From the NCBI RefSeq assembly GCF_947623445.1, contig NC_135245.1, positions 20,095,501-20,159,500 on the forward strand: 64,000 nt of DNA, given 5' to 3'. Positions 24,843 through 59,159 of the stretch are shown here, one piece after another. Numbering within the stretch: position 1 is the first letter of the stretch; the number at the start of each line of letters is the position of its first letter. The position numbers and the translations under genes were made by a program. The DNA comes from Clavelina lepadiformis (Eukaryota; Chordata; Ascidiacea; Aplousobranchia; Clavelinidae). The notes beneath the pieces were generated by a model. The model saw only the letters and a program-made list of their open reading frames with translations. It did not search any database and was not told the DNA's origin.

Positions 24843-25215
24843 ACGTTTAGAAACGATGCCAAAAAACTTGTGTCCCTTCCCTTCCAATTGCAAAATAGAA
24901 ACAGAAAAAAATTCATTTGAATATAATTTTCCTGAATGGACTGGGACTGGACTGTTTTGGAAAACAAACCTTTACCGCCTAGACAGCAACTAAGCTTGGT
25001 TGTGAAATAATCAATCCAGTAGTGAAAGCATCCAGTGAAAAAATCCAGTTGTTCTTGAAAGCATCTTTCATCATAACTCAAAAAGAGGTTGTCACTTCTC
25101 GTGCCCCCAGTTTCAGAACCACTGGACTAAATAGTGGACTGGCTATAAAACGCGCAAGTACAATCCTGCTATATAACTAAGTATGGTAGAAAAATGCTTT
25201 TAAAGATATTTACTG
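24843..25215. other. spacer, no gene seen
   Basis: Right flank of the piggyBac insertion. No exon supported. Confidence 0.4.
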
Positions 25216-25412
25216 ACAGGTTTTTTTTTAAGGTTTGGTTTGGGTGACCGCTAAGTAGTTTTAAGAGACCGCAAGCCTTTTATTTAAATACCAAAAAATA
25301 GCTATATTTGCTTAAATTTGCTTAAACCTAAGCATATTTGCTCAAATTTTGGGAAACCGCTGGAGAAATTTGGGGGACCGTTTCGGTCCCCCAAAACACC
25401 TTAAAAAAGACA
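25216..25412. mobile_element. probable MITE with imperfect inverted ends
   Basis: TTTTTTTTTAAGGTTTGG...GGTGACCG on the left mirrors CGGTCCCCCAAAACACCTTA on the right as an imperfect inverted repeat. The interior has TATTTGCTTAAATTTGC direct repeats. The target duplication is not clear and the superfamily is unassigned. Confidence 0.5.
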
Positions 25413-25651
25413 CTGTTTACTGATACCACATTTACAAGAAAATTTAAACAAAACATGTTCACAAAATTGATACAAATAAACAACCATGTCCAAACGTTAT
25501 AAGAAGAAACTGGGAAAAACTTTGAACACACAACTATTCTGGTGAACTGGTGACAGAAATTACACAACTGCACTTAAAAAAGTGACAATCACATATCATG
25601 TGGGTCTAGTCACTCTAGCGTATAAGTGCACAACCACAGGATACCTTTGTA

Positions 25652-25712
25652 AGGTTAACACTAACTACTCAAATTATGTTGTCAACTGGTTGTGCGCTTG
25701 TATACTAGACCC
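25652..25712 (+). repeat. dispersed repeat R1, 3' part
   Basis: CTAACTACTCAAATTATGTT...GTGCGCTTGTATACTAGACCC matches the right half of the copy at 4066-4170. Confidence 0.45.
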
Positions 25713-27024
25713 AAACATTTTGGATACAATATCTTTAACGTTTGGTTGAAACATGGCTAGGTTAAGGCTTTGGTCCTGCTCCAGGCTAACTTTTTATTTT
25801 GTTGTACACAGCTTTGGGATATCTGCCTAATAGTGACCAAGTCAAAAGCCTTCAACGTTTTAAGTGGACCTTGCAGAAATGTTGGGAACCCAAATTGTAA
25901 TTGTTGTGACCCTTGTGGGCTACCGTACGATCGATGATCGAGCAAACAACCTAACGTACCGTCCGTGCTCGCGACTTTGAAAGAAAGAAGTTACGCATCG
26001 TTCTTTGGCAAACAAATTCTTCAACTTTCTAGTAAATTGTTTGAGTCCTTCGTGTGAGGAGACAACTTATTGTAGATTTTTATTAGACTTTGCACCTCAT
26101 TGCCGTGGAAACGGTATACACAAACACACCGGAAAGTACCCATCTATGTTAAACTAGAAGCTGGTTTTCTTTATTCATAACAGTCGAATTTTTCTTTGGT
26201 AGTTACAGAAAAAGAAATAAAATATTTTTTCTTAGTAAAAAACTGATATTTTCATCGCAAAAACTTTTTCAGCTTTACAACAATCGTGTTTATATCATCA
26301 GAATTTATCCTGTTTGACGTAATAATGATTACGGTATTCTTATCCGTTGCTAAAGCTCATGGTGGAAAAATTTGAAAATGTGGGTGGTAGTTTTCTATTT
26401 AATATTCTGGTGACGTTATCACACACATTGCACGAATTTGTGTGAAACTTTACGATTTATCGCGACGCAGATAAACTAAAAATGTCAAACCAACAAAATA
26501 TGATTTCTTCAACCATAAATTTCCACTTAAACAGTGTAGAATGTACAGTGCGTTATTCTCAAACGTATAGTTCATAAGTCAAAGTGAAAGACTTCTTAGG
26601 TTAATTAGGTTAATAATTACACAAATAGCGTCGTAAAATAGAAAAAGCGAAAACCATCCAGATTGGAGAGGCACCAGAGGATATTGACGTAACAATGCAA
26701 ACAGAAGGAAAAGTGACCTGTACACAGTTGTCATGGTTACCTCTCAACATAAATGAAAAGCAAGACGAAGAACGCGATTTAGTTGGTGGGGTTTCGATGC
26801 TTCGTTGCTTGATGTGTCGATCGCACTCAGGAGAGATATTTGTAGTTGGAAATTTAAAACAGATTTTGGATGCAAACTTTTATGTTTTTGGAAGTCTTTT
26901 TGGCATTTTAAGTTGTTTATTTATTTTTTTGAAACCCTTGAACTCTTTTCTTTTTAAGAATTGCACCAAAATATGAAAGGAATTTAGTTTGAATAAAAAT
27001 TAGATTTTCTTGCAAGAAACCGGC

Positions 27025-27521
27025 ATGGACACGCAGTTGGGTGATACAGGAATTACACTTGGCGATGTTTCTGACGCCACAAAGACCGCCGACGATCTCG
27101 CGAACACTGCAAGACAACTTCCGGGAATGACGAGTCCAAATGACCAAGGTAAGTTTTTTCACAGCCTATGACGTAACAAAGGTCCATTTTAAGAAAACAA
27201 TGCTGAAAAATGGCAATTTTTAGGATCAGCCGAACCGGAAATTTGTCCGACCTGTAACCAGAAGATAATAACCAATCAGCCCACAGGAGGTAAGACGGCT
27301 TAGTGACGTCACAATAAGCAGGAGGTTGTTTGTTCTGCTAATTTTGAAATATTTGTTTATATTGGTTAATTATTTACTAAAATTTGCTAGCTGAAGGCGA
27401 CACATTTGACCAAGTTCTAGAAAAGAGCGAAAGCATCTTAGATTGTTGCTCAAAAGCATTTGACTGCTTAAAGAAAGCGACGGATGCCGTCGGCCAAATT
27501 CAAGAACTCACCGGCGAATAA
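27025..27521 (+). CDS. small acidic CCxxxxFxC protein, copy 1 (unknown family)
   Basis: Three exons, 27025-27148, 27224-27289 and 27391-27521, each with clean GT-AG sites and phase 1 joints, give 106 residues. Exon 1 encodes MDTQLGDTGITLGDVSD... and ends with RQLPGMTSPNDQ. Exon 2 carries ICPTCNQKI, a single CPxC knuckle. Exon 3 carries ILDCCSKAFDC and ends GQIQELTGE. The protein is acidic and has no signal peptide or membrane segment. I do not recognise the family and assign no function. The neighbouring CC pair could be lipid-modified or metal-binding; that is speculation. Two paralogues lie at 33450 and 37148. The hAT insertion begins 35 bases after the stop, so its 3' end may be altered. 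Confidence 0.75.
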
Positions 27522-27869
27522 TAACTTGCTACGTATAACATTGGTGTATTATGACTAGGGCCATTTTTATTTTGACCTAAAAAAATTTTTTTTTGACTTT
27601 ATTTTTATCAAATTTTGACTTTATTTTGACCTAACGAAATTGCTTATTTGTAGAGGACACAGTTCTTCCTCCAGTTACCCAAACATAATATTTTGTCGAT
27701 TTCAGACCCAAACGTAATATTTTGTCGAAAAGTCAAGGTGTTTTATGGATTATAAAAAGTGTGTCGTGTTTTTTGGCGATAGATTTAGGTAGCTTGTGTT
27801 ATTTTGTCCTTGTGAAAAGGGCACTGTGCCTCGATTTTCTCCGCATGGTAAATTCTAATAAACAGCAAA

Positions 27870-28079
27870 TTAAACAGGGAATGCTTGTTGTTGCTCCAAT
27901 CCAGCTTGATGGCGTTTACTTTTCCTGTGGCTTTCAACAAAATACTTTTTATCGCACTTCACTATAACCTCGCAAAAATTGCACCTTAAATCACCCCCGG
28001 GAGTTGCATAAAATTCATCAGAAAAATCTCGACAAATCTGTCTAACTTTTGGTGAAGACGATTTAGCTTGCTTAGGCAT
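27870..28079 (-). pseudogene. hAT transposase N-terminal BED zinc finger
   Basis: Starts MPKQAKSSSPKVRQICRDF and contains LRCNFCEVIVKC...HRKSKRHQAG, the C-x2-C...H-x4-H pattern of BED fingers that begin many hAT transposases. Only 69 codons remain, and there is no dimerisation or catalytic region downstream before the element end. Confidence 0.75.
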
Positions 28080-28221
28080 TTTTGTATTACAGAATGTCAG
28101 TAGGATATTCCTAAAATCCAAACTGTTGATCTTCGAAAATACCACGTTTATGAAGAGGAAGTGTTTTATAAGAATTATTTAAATACGTAACAATGAATAA
28201 ACAATGGACGGTTCCAGGTCG

Positions 28222-28685
28222 ATTCAACCCACGGACGATTCAACCCGCGGACGATTCAACCCGCGGACCTTTCAACCCGCGGACGATTCAACCCACGGAC
28301 GATTCAACCCGCGGACGATTTAACCCGCGGACGATTCAACCCGCGGACGATTAAACCCACGGACGATTCAACCCAGGACGATTCAACCCCGGACTATTCA
28401 ACCCGCGGACGATTCAACCCACGGACGATTCAACCCCGGACGATTCAACCCACGGACCTTTCAACCCCGGACGATTCAACCCAGGACGATTCAACCCACG
28501 GACCTTTCAACCCACGGACGATTCAACAAACGGACGATTCAACCCAGGACGATTCAACCCGCGGACGATTCAACCCGCGGACGATTCAACCCAGGACGAT
28601 TCAACCCACGGACGATTTAACCCGTGGACGATTCAACCCGCGGACGATTCAACCCACGGACGATTCAACCCACGGACCTTTCACG
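28222..28685 (+). repeat. FB1 left arm: tandem ATTCAACCCGCGGACG
   Basis: About 29 copies of a 15-16 bp unit, ATTCAACCCGCGGACG, with variants CCACGG, CCCGG, CCAGG, and CTTTCAACC replacing ATTCAACC. Variants are intermixed, as expected from repeated slippage or unequal exchange. Confidence 0.9.
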
Positions 28686-29679
28686 TACTATTGGCTTAGG
28701 TTATCACCAAGTTACTTTGTAGCCAATATTATGTAAGCTAAATAAAGCTAATATATAGGCCTAAGCTAATATAAAGCTTTTTGTGTTGCCTTTTTTTTCT
28801 TTTACCACTTCTTGTTAGCATTGGTTGTACATCAAAACTTTCAAAACAACTTACCAGTAAAACCTTGAATATTGTTATTTTGCCCTATACAGTACTTTGC
28901 GTACATTTCTGTCTACGCCTGCTACAGATTATTTTTTGTATTGACCATTGTAGATCGGTTATTATATAAAATGTTCTCCTTTTAGCATTAAGTTAACATT
29001 TTTGAAGTTTTTGAAAAGACAAAATGCATGATTTAGTTAGCTTTCGACTCACGTACGTAAATGTGTGTAAGTTATTTATTTTTTTGCATGTACACAAATT
29101 ACAGATATTTTTATAGATACCTGTTTATACATCGATTAATTAGAAAGAAAGTTGTTTTATTTACAGGCAAGCTTAAGAACATGAACCTGAACACAAACAC
29201 AGCACGTATAAAGAGCTAGGCCTTCCCTCTCTTGGTGGCTTTGGTTCTAAGTAGGCCTCTAATTTGGGGCACTGGAATTGTTTGCGGTACAAGAAAAGAG
29301 AAAAACGGAAGAATAATATTACAAAATTACAAGTTTAATAGATTTTGACCTAAAAGAAACAATTGACTTTATATTGGCCTAATAACTTCTGTACTACACG
29401 TCGCACAAGACTGAAATTTGTTTTGTGATAGCATTCTGAGCAGGTTAAAAAAAATTGACCATATAGACTTTTTTTGCGTGCAATCTTCATTCCAATCAAC
29501 AAACAGTTGTTTCTAAGGTTTGACTTTTAATCGACGTGTAGGCTTTTCGCTAAGCAGGCCTACTAGTTACAACACGGTACATAAACTTGTTTTTATTTCA
29601 ACACAAGATGTGTATTGGTATAGTGGTAAAAGCGGCATCCGTGCCTGATAACGAACTGCGTAGACGTTTTTATAAACGG

Positions 29680-29996
29680 GTTGAATCGTCCGTGGGTTGA
29701 ATCGTCCGGGGTTGAATGGTCCGTGGGTTGAATAGTCCGTGGGTTGAATCGTCCGCGGGTTGAATCGTCCGTGGGTTGAATCGTCCGGGGTTGAATCGTC
29801 CTGGGTTGAATCGTCCGTTTGTTGAATCGTCCGTAGGTTGAAAGGTCCGCGGGTTGAATCGTCCGTGGGTTGAATCGTCCGCGGGTTGAATGGTCCGCGG
29901 GTTGAATCGTCCGCGGGTTGATTCGTCCGTGGGTTGAATCGTCCGGGGTTGAATTGTCCGGGGTTGAATCGTCCGTGGGTTGAATCGTCCGACCAC
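29680..29996 (-). repeat. FB1 right arm: inverted tandem units
   Basis: About 20 copies of GGTTGAATCGTCCGCG, the reverse complement of the left-arm unit with the same variant types. The two arms could pair into a long hairpin. Confidence 0.9.
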
Positions 29997-30649
29997 CACA
30001 ATGGACAATTTGCGATAAAAGTTACTGGTGATCCAAGTGGGCATTGTGACTTATTTCCTGCTTTTATGGATTAATATGGTTTAATTGTGTCGCAGTTCCG
30101 GATTTACAATGCTTCCACGAGGATTTTTACAAGAATTACTCTCAAGAAACACAAAAACTTTGTAAAAAGCCATATTTTGAGAAATTTTGACTTTATTGTA
30201 AATTTTGACTTTATTTTGACCTATAAACTTCTTAGAAACAATCCCCTAGGTGCTGAAAACAACTTTATTCTTTGATTCGTGGTCAGACGAGGTCCTTAAA
30301 AAATTTTGACTTTATTGACTTTTGCGGGCCCTAATTATGACGTTTTTGTATATATTTTATCAAGTATTAAACCCCGCCGTCCATCTTATGTTATGACGTC
30401 AATTCGTAGCTCGACTCACTGTATGTGCATTTTATCAACGCCAGTCTGTGTAAGAATTTTTGTAATTTATTTGAATACATATATTTTTCTAAATTTGTTT
30501 TTTTCGTTTCTAACAATTTCACTCTAATGTGAGAAAACAGCGCCAAGTAGCGCTTAAACGAATGGGTAGATATTAACACAAGGATGCGTTACAACTACCT
30601 CTATCAAATTGAAGACTTCTATTATCCGGTTTAAACTATTGTAAATTTT

Positions 30650-31052
30650 TATATACATGATCACAAACACCTTGATATAAAAAAAACTTACGGTATTATA
30701 ATAATAATACGTTTAATACTTAAAATTTGGTTAAATGAGTTGTTTATGGTCAACAACATAATATGAACAGGTTTATTAACGTCATAATGGCTGTGAAAGT
30801 CAATTTCAGCAATACACATAGATATCTTGTAATAATTAATCGACAGAGAACAGTAGTGTAATTTGAAAGATGATGATAACGTTGCAAGATCATGCAGAAA
30901 GGAGCTTATGGGATCACAGAGCTGAATCCTCTGTTGAAAAGACCAAATTTTTCTCCAGCAATTATTTTAATGAAAAAACCAACATCAATAACAATAATTA
31001 AAATATCTGGCTGCTTCTACTTCAACGACATTTTGATGTCACTGCAGCGTCA
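30650..31052. other. 3' flank of truncated MARVEL copy, no gene
   Basis: Nearly identical to 34715-35123. Open frames here are not supported as coding; the similarity comes from the segmental duplication. Confidence 0.5.
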
Positions 31053-31338
31053 TCACGAGCTCACTGTAACCTCACGCGAAACTCTTATCCACGGAAAAAC
31101 GCCACGCCATATTTTGTACGACCAAATGGCATGTATGACGTAAGCAATGCTGGTAAAAAAGGCGAAGGCGGTGGCGGCGGCAAGGTTGGGGACTGATCCC
31201 GTAAAGGCGGCACTCACGCATGACGCGATGACGTAGAAGAAGGCCCAAAAAGCGTTGAAGGTAAATTCGATGATAGACCAAGGAGCGCCTGAACACGTGT
31301 GGACGTGGCAAGCCGACAAATATATCACGAGAGTGATC
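31053..31338 (-). pseudogene. MARVEL/MAL-like exon 2 only (gene truncated by duplication)
   Basis: The 286-base exon is intact, with an AG acceptor at its upstream side, and encodes VIYLSACHVHTCSGAPWSII ... WRGVFPWIRVSREVTVSS. It is almost identical to exon 2 of the gene at 35124-36657. No first exon exists upstream: similarity to the complete gene stops at 31560 in the intron and is followed by a block matching 20503-20921. The exon can only be expressed if spliced to an unrelated upstream exon. The open frame has no disabling change, consistent with a recent duplication. Confidence 0.8.
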
Positions 31339-31565
31339 CTGGAATTGAAATATTGGTGTCATCACTATGTCATAATCGATAGTAATTATTACGTCACTAG
31401 AGGTATTACTAAGGGCACTAATATTCATTTCATGAAAGGATTCAGATGAACAAGGGAAAGGATTGTTAACATGCAAGGATTTGTTGCTTTCATGGAATTC
31501 ATAAAGACGTCTGTTTAATACCTGTTGTGACGTAATACTTAAGAGTAAATCGTCCATTTATTATT

Positions 31566-31981
31566 CTTCACATAATCTATTTTGAAAATTAACACTAACA
31601 ATGGGCTATTGCCGCTGAATCGAAACCGTTTTCGTCGAAGTGACACCCTTGGGCGCTACTTTGCGTTTCGCGGTCTCAAAACATTTACATTTTAGGCCAC
31701 AAGGTGACGCAAAAGGACTAGAATTTCATCGAACAAACTAGTCAACTGAGAAACAGAATTTGTTGACTTGAAATTAACATTTTTACGACCTATCCTGTTT
31801 ACAGGGATGGAAGAAAAGGTTCAGTTCTTCATAAATCTTATACATTTTACGTCATCTCGCAATAAATCTCACATTGAAAGGTTTAAACGTTCGCGGAAGT
31901 CTTCCAACAATAATTAAAATGAGTAATTTAATGGAAAATATTTTGGCGTTTGAGAAAGAATTCGATTTGATCGGAAGTTTT
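31566..31981 (+). repeat. 420-bp block shared with 20503-20921
   Basis: Second copy of the block described at 20503-20921, placed exactly at the point where MARVEL unit A loses similarity to unit B. Confidence 0.75.
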
Positions 31982-33449
31982 CGGCGAATTGTTGCCAGTT
32001 TATCGAAATAATTTACAAGCAATGTTCACTGCCACAAATCTAATAACCAGGTTCATTTCTTAAAACGTGATAAAGTTGGTTTTACTCAAACACGAAGTTA
32101 TGCCTTTCACGCGCAAGTAATTATTTGTTCAAGTTGTTCAGATGAAAACAAGCCCGGGAGACGCTTTTCGTCGATTGGAATTCAAGCAGATATCTTCAAA
32201 CCGCGAATAAAAGAAACATAATAATTCTTCAAGCTATAGCGCAACGGTTGTTAGAACAAATAATTGTAGAATTGGAATCGCGTTAGCTGATCGAGCAAAC
32301 AACCTAAAGTACCGTCCGTGCTTGCGACTTTTATAGGAAGAATTTCCGCATCGTTGTTTGGCAAACAATTCGGCAAACAAATTCTTCAACTTTCTAATAA
32401 GTTGTTTGACTCTTTCGTGTGAGCGGACAACTTATTGTAGATTTTTATTAGACTTTCTACCTCATTGCCATGGACACGTCATACACAAACACACCGGAAG
32501 GTAACCATCTATGTTAAACTAGAAGCTGGTGTTGTTTATTCATGTCATGCGAATTTTTCTTTGGTAGTTGCAGAAAAAGAAATAAAACAATATTCTCTTA
32601 GTAAAAAACTGATATTTTCATCGCAAAAACTTTTTCAGCTTTACAACAATCGTGTTTATATCATCAGAATTTATCCTGTTTGACGTAATAATGATTACGG
32701 TATTCTTATCGGTTGCTAAAGCTCATGGTGGAAAAATTTGAAAATGTGGGTGGTAGTTTTCTATTTAATATTCTGGTGACGTTATCACACACATTGCACG
32801 AATTTGTGTGAAACTCTACGATTTATCGCGACGCAGGTAAACTAAAAGTGTCAAACCAACAACATATGATTTCTTCAACCATAAATTTCCACTTAAAACA
32901 GTGTAAAATGTACAGTGCGTTATCCTCAAACGTACAGTTCGTAAGTCAAAGTTAAAGCCTACTATAAATTAGGTTAATAATTACACAAATAGCGTCGTAA
33001 AACAGAAAAAGCGAAAACCATCCAGATTGGGGAAGGGGGGGGGGAGGTTATTAAATTTCGCGACGACTATAACTGAAATATTCACGACGCGCTTTCTTCA
33101 AAGCAGAGGATATTGACGTAACAAAGCAAACAGAAGAAAAAAATCACCTGTACGCAGTTGTCATGGTTACCTCTCAACATAAATGAAAAGCGAGACGAAA
33201 AACGCGATTTAGTTGGTGGGGTTTCGATGCTTCGTTGCTTGATGTGTCAATCGCACCCAGTAGAGATCTTTGTAGTTGGAAATTTGAAACAGATTTTGGA
33301 TGTAAATTTTTATGTTTTGCAAAGTCTTTTTTCCATTTTAAGTTGTTTATTTATTTTTTTCTAACTCTTGATATTTTTAAGAATCGCACCAAAATATCAA
33401 AGGAGAATTTAATTTGAATAGAAACTAGATTTTCTTGCAAGAAATCAGC

Positions 33450-33949
33450 ATGGACACGCAGTTGGGTGATACAGGAATTACACTTGACGATGTTTCTGAC
33501 ACCACAAAGACCGCCGGCGATCTCGTGAACACTGCAAGACAACTTCCGGGAATGACAAGTCCAAATGACCAAGGTAAGTTTTTTCACAGCTTATGACGTA
33601 ACAAAGGTCCATTTTAAGAAGACAATGCTAAAAACTGGCAATTTTTAGGATCAGCCGAACCGGAAATTTGTCCGACCTGTAACCAGAAGATAATAACCAA
33701 TCAGCCCACAGGAGGTAAGGCGGCTTAGTGACGTCATAATACGGAGGAGGTTGTTTGATCTGCTAATTTTGAGATACTTGTTAATATTGGTTAATTATTT
33801 ACCAAACTTTGCTAGCTGAAGGCGACAAAGTGGACCAAGTTCTAGAAAAGAGCGAAAGCATCTTAGATTGTTGCTCAAAAGCATTTGACTGCTTCGGGAA
33901 AGCGACGGACGCCGTCGGCAAAGTTCAAGAACTCACCGGCGAAGAATAA
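33450..33949 (+). CDS. small acidic CCxxxxFxC protein, copy 2 (unknown family)
   Basis: Exons 33450-33573, 33649-33714 and 33816-33949 give 107 residues, collinear with copy 1. Differences are scattered substitutions (for example DDVSDTTKTAGDLVNTARQL in exon 1 and CCSKAFDCFGKATDAVGKV in exon 3) plus one extra C-terminal Glu. Exon 2 is unchanged at the protein level. Frame, splice sites and the Cys pattern are all kept, suggesting both copies are under constraint or the duplication is recent. The downstream neighbour on the opposite strand is the MARVEL gene at 35124-36657. Confidence 0.75.
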
Positions 33950-35123
33950 CTTGCTACGTATAACATTGGTGTATTATGACGTTTTTGTATATATTTTATC
34001 AGGTATTAAATCCCGCCGTCAATTTTATGTTATGACGTCAATTTGTAGCTCGACTCACTGTATGTGCATTTTATGAGCGCCAGTCTGTGTGAGAACTTTT
34101 GTAATTTATTTCAAAACAAATATTTTCCTAAATTTGATTTTTACGTTTCTAAGAACTTCATTGTAAATTTCCCGCACCCACTGTGACGTAAAAGCGGGTA
34201 TGTGACGTGATAATACGAATAAATAAACACTGAATTTGCTCTACAACTTGCGTTCATAGAACATCACTTAATCTAGTTTGAAGTTTAATAGGCAAGTTTT
34301 ATTATAAAATTCATTGTGAGATAATATTTGACTTTGTGACGCAACACAAAAGTCCATCTTGTACTGCAATGTTAAACAAAGACATTACTTGCAGCGAACT
34401 TATCCAGAAAACGATTATACCAAAGTACCCCGCTTAATAATGCAAATCTTTGCGCTGAAACAAAAACTGGGATTTCAACTAAAATTTGGTTGGTTTATAA
34501 GTCACTATCAAACTACTTTGACTGCTGGTGCAAAATTTATTAGTTTTAAGGACGCGCTTTTGTGAGGTGTTGCACGTCACAATTAAAAGTCGGCGACATG
34601 TGAGAAAACAGCGCTAAGTAGCGCTTAAACGAATGGGTAGTGTTCTACACAAGGATGCGCTACAACTACCTCTATCAAATTGAAGACTTCTATTATCCGG
34701 TTTAAACTATTGTAAATTTTTATATACATGATCACAAACACCTTGATATAAAAAAAACTTACGGTATTATAATAATAATACGTTTAATACTTAAAACTTG
34801 GTTAAATGAGTTGTTTATGGTCAACAACATAATATGAACAGGTTTATTAACGTCATAATGGCTGTGAAAGTCAATTTCAGCAATACACATAGATATCTTG
34901 TAATAATTAATCGACAGAGAACAGTAGTGTAATTTGAAAGATGATGATAACGTTGCAAGATCATGCAGAAAGGAGCTTATGGGATCACAGAGCTGAATCC
35001 TCTGTTGAAAAGACCAAATTTTTCTCCAGCAAATATTTTAATGAAAAAACCAACATCAATAACAATAATTAAAATATCTGGCTGCTTCTACTTCAACAAC
35101 ATTATGATGTCACTGCAGCGTCA

Positions 35124-36657
35124 TCACGAGCTCACTGTAACGTCACGGGAAACTCTTATCCATGGCAAAACGCCACGCCATATTTTGTACGACCAAATGG
35201 CATGTATGACGTAAGCAATGCTGGTAAAAAAGGCGAAGGCGGTGGCGGCGGCAAGGTTGGGGACTGATCCCGTAAAGGCGGCACTCACGCATGACGCGAT
35301 GACGTAGAAGAAGGCCCAAAAAGCGTTGAAGGTAAATTCGATGATAGACCAAGGAGCGCCTGAACACGTGTGGACGTGGCAAGCCGACAAATATATCACG
35401 AGAGTGATCCTGGAATTGAAATATTGGTGTCATCACTATGTCATAATCGATAGTAATTATTACGTCACTAGAGGTATTACTAAGGGCACTAATATTCATT
35501 TCATGAAAGGATTGAGATATAATTCAGGGTTCCACGACATATGACCGCGGGAAAATGACCGCGAACAAACTCACCGGGGACAACTGAACGTGACGTAAAT
35601 TGACCGCGAACAAACTGACTGTGATGTAAATTGACCGCGAACAAACTAACCGGGAACAGACTTACCGGAATGAAAATTGACCGGGAGGTAAATTGACCGT
35701 GCAAGTGCTGAATTATTGTGTTTAAGTTGATGGTAGTATATGATATGTAATGATACGTATGATACGTACAGCTTCAATCTGACAATTTACTTAACTAAAG
35801 TGTCCATTGTTATTGCAATGAGTCCATTGTTACAACATGAGATAGGTTACAACGCATTGTTTCATAATCTCATCAAACAACTCGTCTAGACCGGGAAAAT
35901 GCATGTAACAATAGGAAATCTATGAATAAAGGTGAAAAACCCGGAGGGTCACCCTACACCCTACAAGGGGCCAAAAAACTCTACGAGTGGCAACCTTGAC
36001 TGCAATACACATACTAAATTGGATAGTGACTAGATAGCGACTAGATAGTGAATTAGAATTTTGACCTTTTGACGGCCAATTTGTCGCCGGTTAATTTGAT
36101 CGCCGGCCAATTTATCGACGGTTAATTTCATCGCCGGCCAATTTACGTCACGGTTAATTTGATCGCCGGCCAATTTGTTGCCGGTCAGTTGTCCACTACC
36201 AGTTGTCGCCGATGAGTTTGTTCACGGTCACTTCTCGTGATCCCATAATTCAGATGAACACGGGAAAGGATTGCTAACATGCAAGGATTTGTTGCTTTCA
36301 TGGAATTCATAAAGACGTCTGTTTAATACCTGTTGTGACGTAATACTTAAGAGTGAATCGTCAATTTAGAATATATTCCTGTCACGATATAACTTTATTT
36401 TAAAATTCGTCGACGTCATTATGAAATGATACTAACAGCGTCAAAATCCATGACGTCACAGCCACAAACATGACAAATTGGTGGGGGCGACTGAAAGCGG
36501 TCCCACCGACTGAAGCGATCAGGGCCCAGCACAGAAGACCCAGGATTACTTCCGCGATTTTTAGAATGCCTGGAACCGATAACAAATAACTGGTATTACA
36601 CGTGATCACCGTGGTTGATGACGTCACAGTAGTGGTGGTCGTCGTGGTTTCTTCCAT
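35124..36657 (-). CDS. MARVEL/MAL-like four-TM protein 4
   Basis: Minus-strand exons 36657-36437 and 35409-35124 join in phase 2 to 168 residues. Exon 1 begins MEETTTTTTTVTSSTTVIT, a Thr-rich N-terminus, followed by SYLLSVPGILKIAEVILGLL and FVAVTSWILTL. Exon 2 has the shared CSGAPWSIIEF motif, a helix pair, and YKIWRGVLPW. The start is the ATG at 36657; an upstream in-frame TTG is ignored. The intron, about 1 kb, holds the 717-bp fold-back element. It is divergent from small gene copy 3 (about 490 bases between starts) and convergent with copy 2. Confidence 0.82.
35528..36244. mobile_element. fold-back element with tandem-repeat ends (FB2, 717 bp)
   Basis: Flanked by a 9-bp duplication ATAATTCAG (35519-35527 and 36245-36253). 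The left end is GGTTCCACGACATATGACCG; the right end, reversed, is GGGATCACGAGAAGTGACCG, and both continue into GTGAACAAACTCA-like sequence. Arms of about 170 bp hold short repeats: GACCGCGAACAAACT and TAAATTGACC on the left, GCCGGCCAATTT and GCCGGTTAATTTGATC on the right. No coding. It resembles FB1 in the GGTTCCA start, the 9-bp duplication and the repeat-built arms. It lies in the intron of the MARVEL gene and is absent from unit A. Confidence 0.85.
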
Positions 36658-37147
36658 ATTCAATGTTGCTGACGTCAGCTTGAGAAATTACTAAAATGTC
36701 TAGAAAAATGAGTAAAATTATTTCTCGATAATATTCATTGCGACAAAGCAACTTCTATTTATTCAAAACTTTGACCAGGGAAACAGCCGCGAAATTACTA
36801 CGTTAAATGAGATCGGATTGTACAAAGCGGGGTATAACTACGGTCAGCTCGCGGCGTCTCTTTTGTCAAATACCAACAATTCCGTAGCTATTTCCATTAA
36901 ATCGCGCGCGTTCTACCAAGATCAGGTTACACAATTGTAGCAATAGCAACCGAATAGTGAAAAGTTGATTAACGGAAATTGGATCAATCGTGACGACATA
37001 ATAGCGTGAAGTCAAACTACAGAAAGCAGCGTTCTAGAAAGTGGCGAGAAGGAAGCTTAAAGCAAAATATTTGGTTGATAGACACAATTAATTTTTAGAG
37101 AAAGGTAGTAGCCTAATTTTCCCGGCATTTTCACGTAAACAAGAGTC

Positions 37148-37663
37148 ATGAATGTAAGTTTGGAAAACTCTGCTCTTGGCGAAGTTAGCGAAACAGCTCA
37201 AACTGCGAGCGACATACAAGGCCAAGTCAGCAACCTGCCGGGAATGACGAAAGAAACAAACGAAACAACCACAACAGGTGAAAATCCTTTGATTCATGAC
37301 GTAAAAGATAGAATGACTGCTGCATGAATTTCTTAATCGACTGGCAATGAACTTACTTTAATTTTTAGAGCAAAGCGAAGACAAACCTCAAACCAGCGCT
37401 GTACAAGGGGAGCCATCAATCGCAGTGACTGGGCAGCCTAAAGCTACAGGTGAACGATTGTCCGATATTCTCCACCAAGTAGATACTTTATACAATTCAG
37501 TGCAACCTTTAAACTTTTCTCGATCTCAGGAGGAGGAATATCCTTGGACAAAACTGTCGAACAGACCGAGAAAACGGCCAACTGCTGCTCCAGCATCTTT
37601 GGTTGCGCGGGAGAAGCCACCGAGGTTGCTGGAAACATCCAGGAACTTGCCGAGAAAGAATAA
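37148..37663 (+). CDS. small CCxxxxFxC protein, copy 3 (diverged, unknown family)
   Basis: Exons 37148-37277, 37369-37449 and 37530-37663, all joined in phase 1, give 114 residues. Exon 1 reads MNVSLENSALGEVSETAQTA and ends with NLPGMTKETNETTTT, aligning with the LPGMT end of the other copies. The middle exon has lost the CPxC knuckle and is Gln/Ser/Thr-rich. Exon 3 retains NCCSSIFGC and ends GNIQELAEKE, matching CCSKAFDC...GQIQELTGE. The identical exon number, phase and terminal motifs show common descent despite strong divergence, which argues that the protein is real. The start lies 490 bases from that of MARVEL gene 4 on the other strand. AATAAA follows at 37813. Confidence 0.75.
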
Positions 37664-37812
37664 ACAAGGGTCTATTACGAAACAATGACACATTGTGGAT
37701 GTCTTTTAACCTCAAGTCACATTATGACGTGATAAAGACGTACTGCATAATCACTCTCTTTGCTGCATGTATTTTATGTCGATGTATTTTCACTTGCTAT
37801 TACAGTATGATA

Positions 37813-37818
37813 AATAAA
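37813..37818 (+). terminator. polyadenylation signal of small gene copy 3
   Basis: AATAAA 150 bases after the stop codon at 37663, followed by an AT-rich stretch. Confidence 0.45.
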
Positions 37819-37819
37819 T

Positions 37820-40414
37820 AATTTATTATGTTTTATTGTGACGTATGCAATCCTTTGTTTCGTCACACTGAGTGACCCATCGACCTGGCATAACCCAAGT
37901 TAATAATTACAAGTGGTCACTATGGTATTTGTCTTCAAATCGCAACAAATGACAACGGCCAAAGGCTACGCTACAACAACCACATGACGTCATAATTGGG
38001 GCATTATAACAAATCTTAACATGAAAGCAGATCACCTCCTAAGCGAGAAGACCTGACCTCAACCGCGCAAAAAACTCGGGCATTTAACTTTTATAACCAT
38101 ACCCGGCCTGAATTTATGTGAACACATGCTAAGCATTATACTGGGCACTAGCCAGCCACGATTACTCACACGCGCAGTAATAGGCCAGGCCGCTAACTAC
38201 AAGTAGCAGCTAACAAGTCTCTGTTTATGCAAGTACACAAATCTGTCAGTCTATTATTTTCAAAACTTTTTCGGTGGTTATTCCTTACTGTCTTCATACA
38301 TTTGATAATTTGAGTATATTAGATTAAGCACACATCATGACATAACTCGAGCCTCAAAACTGCAGACTGTTAAGCATAGCCTTGCTTTTATCTCCAGATC
38401 TCAGTTGCTTATAAAACAAAACATGTCGGTCTCCTCGCACGGGCGGAAAACAAGCAAACGCTCCACAATCCACAAAGCTGCTTTCGTAAATAAAACCAAC
38501 GACCATTGACAGTATACACAAAGCTTTTTATTAAAAAAGGACTTTTGTTACAAAAGACGCTTCCTGTAGCGGCCTGCACAACACTTCCGTTCTAAAGTTG
38601 CTGACAAAGACAAAAGAATCGCTTCCGGAATCTAATCAGGAAATATGACGTTGCCCTTAAGGCTTATACAATGCCCAAGAGCCATGAAGTCAAAAACTGT
38701 CTCCTAAGTGCCATGCCATGCTATTTTATACGTACCGTGTTCAAAGAGAACACGGCAATGAATGAATTGTGCTGACAACAACTAAGAAAACTTGGCCGCG
38801 ATATTATTTAGTTTCTTTGATTTTTGGAAAGATATCTCTAAACTTACAATTTCTTGCACAAAACTAACCTAACCAAGGCATTAGAACTAGTACGTTGCTA
38901 GAATAAATCCAAATCGACGCCTATTTGACTCAACTGTCAGTGGATTTGGTTTTGCCTTCGTAAACGGTGAACTTCGTAAAAGAATTCAATTTTTCAGTGT
39001 TTGACTCTTGAAATAAACTCGATTGCTTAACCTTATTAGTAATTTAATAACCACGGTTTGCTACGTTTAATTTCCCACTAACAGAGCACGACGTTGAAAG
39101 GTTTATTCTTCTCAACCTTTCTATTCTTGAGATAAACCGCTCAAGCGATTTGAAGAATAATTAAGCCGCCATTCAACCTTTTTTAAGAAGCTTACGCGAG
39201 ACTGACCAACCAGCGATATGCTGAGGCACCACAAAAACAACTGAATTAACGCTTCAACAACAACTTTAATCATGCTGTAACTGGTGTAGAAGGCTGCATC
39301 CAACGTATAAAAAAACGCGGCTGTTACTTTTGGATATAACTGAGTAACTATGTTACGACTATCGCACTTTTTTACTACATGCAACAGCTTCCTCTAAAGG
39401 AAGATTACGTCATCATAATTGCTGTGAGCAATTTTGGAAGGCAACCAAAATCACTGAAGCGTTATAGACAGTCTCATTTAATACCATTAGTCTGATTGAA
39501 ACAGCGATACCGGCAAGTTACGACACGACTATTTATAAAATTATTATTGTATTCAACTTTTCTCTTTAAGTCGAGCGCCCATAATTTTACTGCACTTTAT
39601 AAATCGTAGCTCATGCGCGCCGCGTTAGGTGAAAACAACATGGCTTAGCTGCCAGTCCAAGTTTACTGGAAAAGCTGAATATGTAGAGTTTTGTAGACCT
39701 CGAAGGTGCAGTGTCTTTTAACGTGCTAGACTTCACCTCACCGCTCAATACCACATCACATTGTTTGTTTGTCTGTCTGTCAATTCCTGTCGCCCATTCT
39801 TGAAGCCCATAGTTCTTCTGAAACGAATTTACCCTCTTTTTTACCATCAAGGCTTGTTACACATAGGAATTCAATTCCTATTGTATTCATTTTACTCTGG
39901 TGAGGGTCTGAAGTTAGGTCGAAATATGTTACACAGTTTATTATAAAGATGTCTATTGCTACACTTTGATATCGCAAAATAATATCATCTCTGCCGAAAC
40001 TAACCCATTTTCATGAAAAGAAAATGCTTTAAAATCACGCGATCTAATTGGCGTGACGTGGGGGGGCGTGGACGTGTGCGTTGAAAGGTTTGGAGCTAAA
40101 CCCCACATTTCGTCAGCGTACACTCTAACAGTAAAAATATGGTAATTACCGTTAAATATATTAATTAATTATCTGACCTCGCAAAACCCTTTGCAGTTGA
40201 CTGATCGAGATTGCTTGAAAGCGGTCGGTTGCAAAGAAAAAACAAATCAGTTGATATTTAGTCTTTATTACGTATTATATTTTTTAAGCCGGCATCCTAC
40301 ATAGACATCTACGTCTGTCAGAACAAAACTACACGCTTGCGGTCAAAGTGGAGTCCCATTTACAACAATCAGCCCAGAAACAGAAGCGTCCAATCACATT
40401 TGATTACATCATCT
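37820..40414. other. spacer, no gene seen
   Basis: No exon supported on either strand. Two overlapping opposite-strand frames near 39611-39977 have no recognisable motif. Confidence 0.4.
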
Positions 40415-57260: not shown

Positions 57261-59159
57261 CTAAAAACGATAACGGTCACAAGTGCCACAACGGTAAAAT
57301 ATTACTACACAACTACAAACTACAACCCAAACTAGTGCCTTAACAATTGGATCATATAACATTAAAGTGTAGTGCTCCTTAAAAAAAGTGCGTAAAGATA
57401 TTCTCATGGCACTGGTGACACATTCTTTTTTATTATTATACAAAAAATTGGTCACTGACTGATAAGATTTAAACGACCGGTTCGAAAGCATCATTTTGCA
57501 AAGACGCCTCGGAAAAATCAGATCGTAAGTTTGTGCAAGTTCCAAAGTCTTCTCATCTGGGTATTCAACCCATTCAAAATACTCCCTGTATGCTGTGTCG
57601 TTCGAGTCCAGGTAGAGCAGATACTTTGCAAGATCTGCTGGACTCTTGAAGTCGTCGGTGTGTATGAAGGAACCGGTAGGAGCAAGTCTTTCGACATCCT
57701 CCTTTGATGGTCCCCACACCACTGGAACTCTTCCAGAAGCAATGGAATTGTGCCAAAATTTTTCGGTCATGTAATCCTTGCAGTATTGGGCGTTTTCGAA
57801 CGACAGATAGAATTTATAGGTATCCAGTTCATCAGCGGATAGTTTGTTGTATACGTTCTTGTTGTTGAAGCACCTTCCATAACGACCCACTGGCAATCCA
57901 GCTTCCACCAACGCGTCAGAATAATCCTTTCGCATTTTTGCACCATGCGTGCCTTCGCAGTTATACTGACGACCCACAGCTACAAGAATATATTTATAGG
58001 CTACAAATATGTTAATAAATTACAACAAAAAATTACCAACCCCTCCCGGACAGCTTAGGCAATTGACTGTTGTTTGATGCAAAATATCAGGTATATAAAC
58101 AAAATTGTTTCAAAATCTTCTCGAGCAGAGTTCTAATTAATTACCGCGACTCTCTTTTTCTTTGCCAAATGTTCATTCGCCCATTTCTTTCCCTGTTGAA
58201 TAATTTTGCTGACGCATATTGACTGCTCGTATGGCGCAAAAACGTCCGCGTCACTTCGATGTGTCATTGTCCAGTTGATAAAGTGATTGCCAAACTGCCT
58301 CATATCACTTCTCCCTTCCATTTCTATTAGGATAGATGGAGCTTCGTGCGACCAAAAGACAAAGACTTGTTCGGGATCTCTGACAATAACAATTTTTTGC
58401 TATTTAAGTGTTTTAAGGTTTAAATAATATGCAATTCAGGTATAAATGCTGTCTATGTGAGAACTCAAACATTTCCAATCTTTATGGTAAAGTGTAGGCC
58501 TAAGTCAATGCACCAGAATTACAAGTGGCTTTAATTTGCTTTTATTATAAACAAATGTTTTTTTATCATTCAAAGGGTTTCTCTACACACCTGTAATGTT
58601 TCCAAGGCATAGTTTCTTTGTCCAGGTTTGAGTAGTGGAATACAACAGCGCCAGCTTCAGGAAGCTTACTGCGGTCGTAAGACGCTGTGCAACCACCCAT
58701 GTCAAAACCTTCTGGGAATCCTTCATTTTTTGCACTCCATGGATGGTCCCAGAACAATATGTAAGTACGATTGCGGACTGATCTGATTGTGTTACTTTCT
58801 TGCCAAGCCCGAATATTTGAAGAATTGTTGTACAGTTGGATATTCTTTGAAAGCCTGCAGCAGAAATGGGTTTATTTGGAAAAGGAAAGTTTTGAAATCG
58901 AGGAATCTTGAAAGATGTGACGCTTTTAACGTTTGTTAGTAACTGCACCACTGGCCGCAGCCGCAATGTTTTTTTTGATTAGTTTATTTGCAGTTTAAAA
59001 GCTCTCGACCGCTCATGCTTTCGGCTAAAGTGTTAGACAACACGTTGATTGAAAACGTTTTAAATCTTACCTAAGTTTGAATAAAAGCCACACGAGATAA
59101 TAGATAGCAACGAAGAAATGTAGGCACACCACTGCTAATATGAGCTTCTTAACAGACAT
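57261..59159 (-). CDS. Alpha-1,3-fucosyltransferase (GT10)
   Basis: Minus-strand exons 59159-59071, 58854-58591, 58379-58145 and 57965-57261 join in frame to about 430 residues. Exon 1 encodes a short cytosolic tail and signal anchor (MSVKKLILAVVCLHFFVAIY), giving type II Golgi topology. Exon 2 has TYILFWDHPW and PEAGAVVFHYSNLD. Exon 3 has EQVFVFWSHEAP and NWTMTHRSDADVFAPY. Exon 4 has YKFYLSFENAQYCKDYMTEK, the GDP-fucose-binding motif of GT10, then NSIASGRVPVVWG and DYITEK-type context. The enzyme transfers fucose from GDP-fucose to GlcNAc of glycan chains (family knowledge). Oddity: after the catalytic domain a second hydrophobic segment, VKALVWVVVCSCVVIFY, nearly ends the protein. The exon 4 acceptor was chosen at 57965 to keep frame. 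Confidence 0.88.

Follow-up and report, generated by a model that had tools for sequence, protein, structure and literature searches.

The stretch of Clavelina lepadiformis DNA analyzed here (the window, 64,000 nucleotides corresponding to C6:20095501-20159500 of a 209,060,895-base genome in 95 contigs; all coordinates are positions within it) carries three genes on the plus strand, A (27025-27521), B (33450-33949), and C (37148-37663), whose products are acidic proteins of 106, 107, and 114 residues, respectively. Each gene has three coding exons separated by GT-AG introns, all of them in phase 1 (Table 1), which agrees with the architecture proposed in the first-pass annotation, namely three genes of three exons in identical phases encoding acidic proteins of 106 to 114 residues. 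The LPGMT motif, described there as closing exon 1, is present in all three proteins, including the diverged C. At the C terminus, the shared motif reads CC-x3-F-x-C followed by [IV]QEL; the spacing CC(x4)FxC given previously was a misreading, and the IQEL reported for the family holds for A and C but not for B, where it is VQEL (I100V). The net charge is strongly acidic, with 18 to 20 acidic residues against 7 to 8 basic ones (6 basic in C). A, B, and C are genuine protein-coding genes of a small local family. It has not been assigned to any known one and is most likely an orphan restricted to this locus, with a putative function proposed below.

Table 1. Positions of the exons of genes A, B, and C and of associated features in the window.
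Feature	Position	Strand	Description
Gene A, exon 1	27025..27148	+	Residues 1-41 and the initial base of codon 42; predicted amphipathic helix followed by LPGMT
Gene A, exon 2	27224..27289	+	Short linker containing CPTC; all 66 bases the same as in B; unalignable to C
Gene A, exon 3	27391..27521	+	Stop included; predicted heptad helix; CCSKAFDC and IQEL
Gene B, exon 1	33450..33573	+	
Gene B, exon 2	33649..33714	+	
Gene B, exon 3	33816..33949	+	Stop included; CCSKAFDC and VQEL
Gene C, exon 1	37148..37277	+	Diverged paralogue; LPGMT retained
Gene C, exon 2	37369..37449	+	Linker without cysteine
Gene C, exon 3	37530..37663	+	Stop included; CCSSIFGC and IQEL retained
Acceptor-like stretch before gene A ATG	27009..27024	+	AG 8 bases before the ATG; putative acceptor for 5' splicing or for a spliced leader
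Duplication copy 1	25928..31560		Carries gene A and partial MARVEL gene; holds 2.8-kb insertion; repeat blocks D3-D12
Duplication copy 2	32281..36368		Carries gene B and 3' part of MARVEL gene; insertion at about 35519-36247

Conservation of exons 1 and 3 between distant paralogues

Gene C is a true paralogue of A and B. In exons 1 and 3, A and C are identical at 30 of 81 residues, whereas 5000 codon re-pairings of the two genes yield 5.5 identities on average and never more than 14. Conservation is restricted to these exons; exon 2 cannot be aligned, and C lacks an equivalent of the CPTC seen in A and B. Synonymous sites are saturated in both comparisons over exons 1 and 3 (pS 0.756, pN 0.395, and dN 0.56 for A and C; pS 0.75 and dN 0.54 for B and C), so that the 30 identities do not represent residual similarity and purifying selection has acted. 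Based on these comparisons, exons 1 and 3 have been under long-term purifying selection, their reading frames having evidently been translated and constrained for a long time. The similarity above chance in an exon-by-exon comparison, along with the matching intron phases, is that of a single paralogous family, and the purifying selection extends across the parts shared by A, B, and C. The architecture is thus that of two conserved helical exons around a free middle exon. This result also upholds the earlier claim that the third copy, although strongly diverged in its middle, retains both motifs under selection.

Predicted heptad helices and the position of the cysteines

Exons 1 and 3 each encode a predicted amphipathic helix whose hydrophobic residues follow a heptad pattern. 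The helical moment of the aligned exon 3 (34 residues) and of the aligned exon 1 (21 residues) peaks at 105 degrees, near the 7/2 heptad value, and none of 5000 shuffles reaches the score of either. For the individual proteins A, B, and C, the score is reached by 0, 0, and 2 of 5000 shuffles in exon 3 and by 1, 1, and 75 in exon 1, with peaks at 104 to 105.5 degrees and 106.5 to 108 degrees, respectively. This hydrophobic periodicity is the one of coiled coils and helical bundles; within the limited resolution that 34 residues offer, a peak above 100 degrees agrees less well with a helix flat on a membrane surface than with a bundle or a left-handed coiled coil. The first-pass annotation anticipated a pair of amphipathic helices around the CC motif. 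Two amphipathic helices are indeed predicted, but a single continuous one in exon 3 would contain the CC, and the second one belongs to exon 1.

Since the periodicity peaks at 104 to 105.5 degrees, the cysteines were placed on a heptad register instead of a 100-degree wheel, and the registers of A, B, and C coincide. In the three proteins, the middle cysteine of the motif lies 8 to 17 degrees from the hydrophobic direction, whereas the outer cysteines are found 86 to 95 degrees away from it, one heptad apart from each other and on the edge of the face. The phenylalanine of the motif is 60 to 68 degrees off the hydrophobic direction, on the side opposite to the outer cysteines. Acidic residues occupy the back of the helix in all five heptads of A and B and in three of the five of C. 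Hydropathy reveals neither a transmembrane-like stretch nor a hydrophobic N terminus in A, B, or C, their most hydrophobic 19-residue windows scoring 0.44 to 0.78. A possible internal repeat relating exon 1 to exon 3 was also considered, but in nine comparisons between 22 and 934 of 2000 shuffles reached the score, which is too weak, and heptads common to both exons would account for the similarity.

Recent duplication of genes A and B

According to the sequence comparison, A and B are the product of a recent tandem segmental duplication, whose unit comprises the gene with about 1.1 kb of upstream sequence and, on the minus strand, the final exon of a MARVEL gene. The two genes differ by 11.5 nonsynonymous changes in 248 sites (dN 0.048) and 2.5 synonymous changes in 70 sites (dS 0.037), giving 10 amino acid differences. 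Coding differences (14/318) are slightly less frequent than those in the noncoding part of the shared duplication (96/1257, 7.6%; p = 0.048), and exon 2 shows none in 66 bases (p = 0.012); nonsynonymous sites taken alone are not significantly below the noncoding ones (p = 0.14). Each copy remains intact in all its frames, all its splice sites, and all its motif residues except for I100V of IQEL. Relaxed selection or gene conversion since the duplication is possible.

Search for relatives

No match above any curated cut-off was obtained in Pfam, either with the whole proteins or with single exons, and no significant relative of A, B, or C was found in NCBIfam, PHROGs, or the PDB sequences. The best of the weak matches were Herpes_UL25 (E 0.046, for C) and zinc-finger fragments (E 0.042-0.18, for exon 2 of A) in Pfam, NF009143 (E 0.022) in NCBIfam, and phrog_22295 (E 0.018, in two of the three members); those that have curated cut-offs fall far below them, and these searches place the trio in no Pfam, NCBIfam, or PHROGs family. 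Moreover, 135 stretches with the seed pattern in prokaryote contigs and 176 in viral contigs encode no relative at E <= 1e-3. The absence of a known family reported in the first-pass annotation therefore holds in all these collections. In the literature, no title or abstract opening naming such a family was found by searches that were not motif-based, and absence from print or from annotations is not claimed.

Protein searches of the own genome returned A, B, and C alone, a lower bound given that one to five candidates were scored per query. The exon-3 queries bridged the distance between A/B and C, whereas the exon-1 query from C returned nothing but itself and failed to recover A and B, so that relatives at the distance of C can escape an exon-1 search. 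Profile scans for a fourth copy in the window and 10 kb on either side gave only A, B, and C as significant. A minus-strand frame at 49474-49277 contains LLNCCSLVFHC, with the exact CC-x3-F-x-C spacing (profile E 0.0019), but it has no IQEL and lacks an adjacent exon-1 profile match, and its domain score of 15.1 bits is equaled or exceeded in 1 of 40 shuffled windows, so it is probably a chance match.

Start codons

An acceptor-like AG precedes the ATG by 8 bases in A and B and by 4 bases in C. Tunicates employ spliced-leader trans-splicing; in Ciona, 11,797 of 12,615 transcripts with 5' ends defined by full-length expressed sequence tags were trans-spliced (PMC2760879). Along with the position of the AG, this makes the modeled start codons plausible as they stand. 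Extending the gene model by a coding exon further upstream (MDTSYTNTPE, near 32470 in copy B and in frame with the acceptor before the ATG) was rejected: in copy A, the start codon is GTG and 5 of 31 aligned bases differ (counted by eye), and the stretch is therefore not conserved as a coding exon. The 5' end may still include an untranslated exon.

Neighboring genes and insertions

Between B and C lies a minus-strand MARVEL gene (35127-36657), which appears whole only there. Its first exon, within 36400-36657, matches PF01284 with 34.8 bits (cut-off 32.8, E 2.1e-8), whereas the last-exon fragment, from 35408 downward, gives 27.6 bits and alone would fall below the cut-off. The minus-strand copy adjoining A (31056-31337, 27.6 bits) consists of the last exon only; no first-exon block for it was present among the repeats found, and it is probably truncated. 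PF01284 matches none of A, B, or C, but only the minus-strand neighbor. The minus-strand open reading frames (ORFs) at 31072-31557 and 35143-35499 were considered as the MARVEL frame and discarded, being in the wrong frame and without a significant match. The whole MARVEL gene is arranged head to head with gene C, their start codons (36657 and 37148) lying 490 bases apart, and the two genes may share a promoter.

Two insertions distinguish the duplicated copies. The first one (27556-30333, 2,778 bases) begins 35 bases beyond the stop codon of gene A, and copy B shows the empty site. It is flanked by an 8-base direct repeat (ATTATGAC), has the ends TAGGGCC / GGGCCCTA, and contains inverted arrays of a repeat of about 16 bases; both its ends and the length of the target repeat are reminiscent of hAT-type elements. 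The second one (35519-36247) is located in the intron of the MARVEL gene in copy 2 only and is likewise built of short repeats, which run in opposing directions at its two ends.

Elsewhere in the window, a minus-strand ORF at 53645-54883 matches the BTB_2 domain (E 1.1e-20) and, weakly, Ion_trans, being probably part of a voltage-gated potassium channel, and another one at 57261-57977 encodes a fucosyltransferase domain that belongs to glycosyltransferase family 10 (E 1.4e-46). No tRNA genes were found in the window and no Rfam matches within 25000-39000.

Discussion

As a tentative proposal, one that we hold to be a real possibility rather than the probable answer, A, B, and C would be lineage-restricted, small, acidic, non-secreted proteins of two helices, forming a self-associating bundle whose cysteine-lined edge would serve for docking or as a switch. 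In these proteins, the helices of exons 1 and 3 would be joined by the poorly conserved exon-2 linker, capped by LPGMT and [IV]QEL, and packed in the cytosol as a bundle or coiled coil, probably through self-association. Of the conserved cysteines, the middle one (C83 in A) would sit in the hydrophobic face, whereas the outer ones (C82 and C89 in A), one heptad apart on the edge, would constitute the docking or switch site, acting most likely via S-acylation in the reducing cytosol.

Several observations weigh against this proposal. The dN/dS ratio between copies, put forward in the first-pass annotation as a check, indicates purifying selection in the comparisons with C, but between A and B it is about 1.3, indistinguishable from neutral (Fisher p = 0.74), and gives no such sign. 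Also, C matches either A or B at 4 of the 10 residues by which these two differ (13, 18, 91, and 100; by eye), and conserved sites have therefore not been spared from change. The helical segments were picked from the conserved part of the alignment. In 18-residue windows at a fixed 100 degrees, amphipathicity is significant in A (exons 3 and 1: 14 and 3 of 2000 shuffles) and in B (18 and 38) but not in C (202 and 176). Finally, the only ground for the S-acylation step is the presence of the cysteines.

The wide hydrophobic face of the exon-3 helix, with one cysteine within it and two at its edge, could instead suggest a peripheral membrane anchor, where this helix would lie flat on the cytosolic face of a membrane, the CC/C triad would be S-acylated, as in targeting by an amphipathic helix combined with palmitate, and self-association would be secondary. 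The intact gene for a MARVEL-domain membrane protein between B and C is a hint in the same direction and nothing beyond a hint. However, the exon-3 periodicity is not the 98 to 100 degrees of straight or 11/3 membrane helices, the strongly acidic charge disfavors binding to anionic membranes, and the acylation would be hypothetical, which leaves this explanation doubtful. Known S-acylated amphipathic helices, such as residues 107-125 of RPE65 with palmitoyl-C112, likewise have a cysteine inside an amphipathic helical stretch; the trio differs in its three cysteines in a heptad pattern, its small acidic proteins, and an acylation that is hypothetical, and no sequence relation is claimed. The same geometry, with the middle cysteine at the core and the outer ones at flanking heptad positions in all three proteins, would also suit an oligomer locked by inter-chain disulfides across a coiled coil, either upon oxidation or in a vesicle, the tunic, or another oxidizing site. 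This is unlikely, because hydropathy shows no N terminus resembling a signal peptide and the cysteines of cytosolic proteins normally stay reduced.

Somewhat less credible again is that the family was once functional but that A and B are decaying or not expressed and now drift neutrally, as their dN/dS, the 10 amino acid changes, and the insertion so close to the stop codon of A might indicate. In this case, the intact frames, splice sites, and motif residues (I100V apart) and the slightly lower divergence of the coding sequence speak against drift, as does the unchanged exon 2, although gene conversion could account for the latter. The least probable alternative, to which we give little credence, is a highly diverged member of a known animal family that profiles miss, for example half of a LITAF-type domain. 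The CPTC in exon 2 and the CC...F.C in exon 3 of A and B are suggestive, and CPTCNQKI would resemble the first knuckle of LITAF-like domains. Set against LITAF/CDIP1-type domains, with two CxxC knuckles around a hydrophobic insert, the trio has one CPxC, present in A and B and missing from C in an exon that is not conserved, no second CxxC, no membrane-inserting stretch, and no Pfam match. The best PDB profile match, the bacterial helical protein RicA/YmcA, is likewise an all-helical segment of similar length, but its E values (0.33 and 0.41) are at chance level and its alignment does not pair cysteines with cysteines.

A bolder version of the bundle proposal, which we consider improbable, would see in the trio a family confined to tunicates, whose tiny cytosolic proteins with heptad helices carry an invariant three-cysteine switch on one face, expanding tandemly beside the MARVEL gene and cooperating with its product at membranes. 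As in other orphan (taxonomically restricted) families of small proteins, there are tandem local copies, short exons, and no database match, and only the heptad and cysteine pattern sets the trio apart; we regard it as an orphan family of the ordinary kind, with a single neat feature that lends itself to testing. By itself it would leave the wider picture unchanged. Nonetheless, if expressed, A, B, and C would be an undescribed family of small proteins in a colonial chordate, with a simple testable design in which a pair of heptad helices is combined with an invariant edge of cysteines, and would show selection in orphan genes retaining two helical exons and their caps but not the middle exon.

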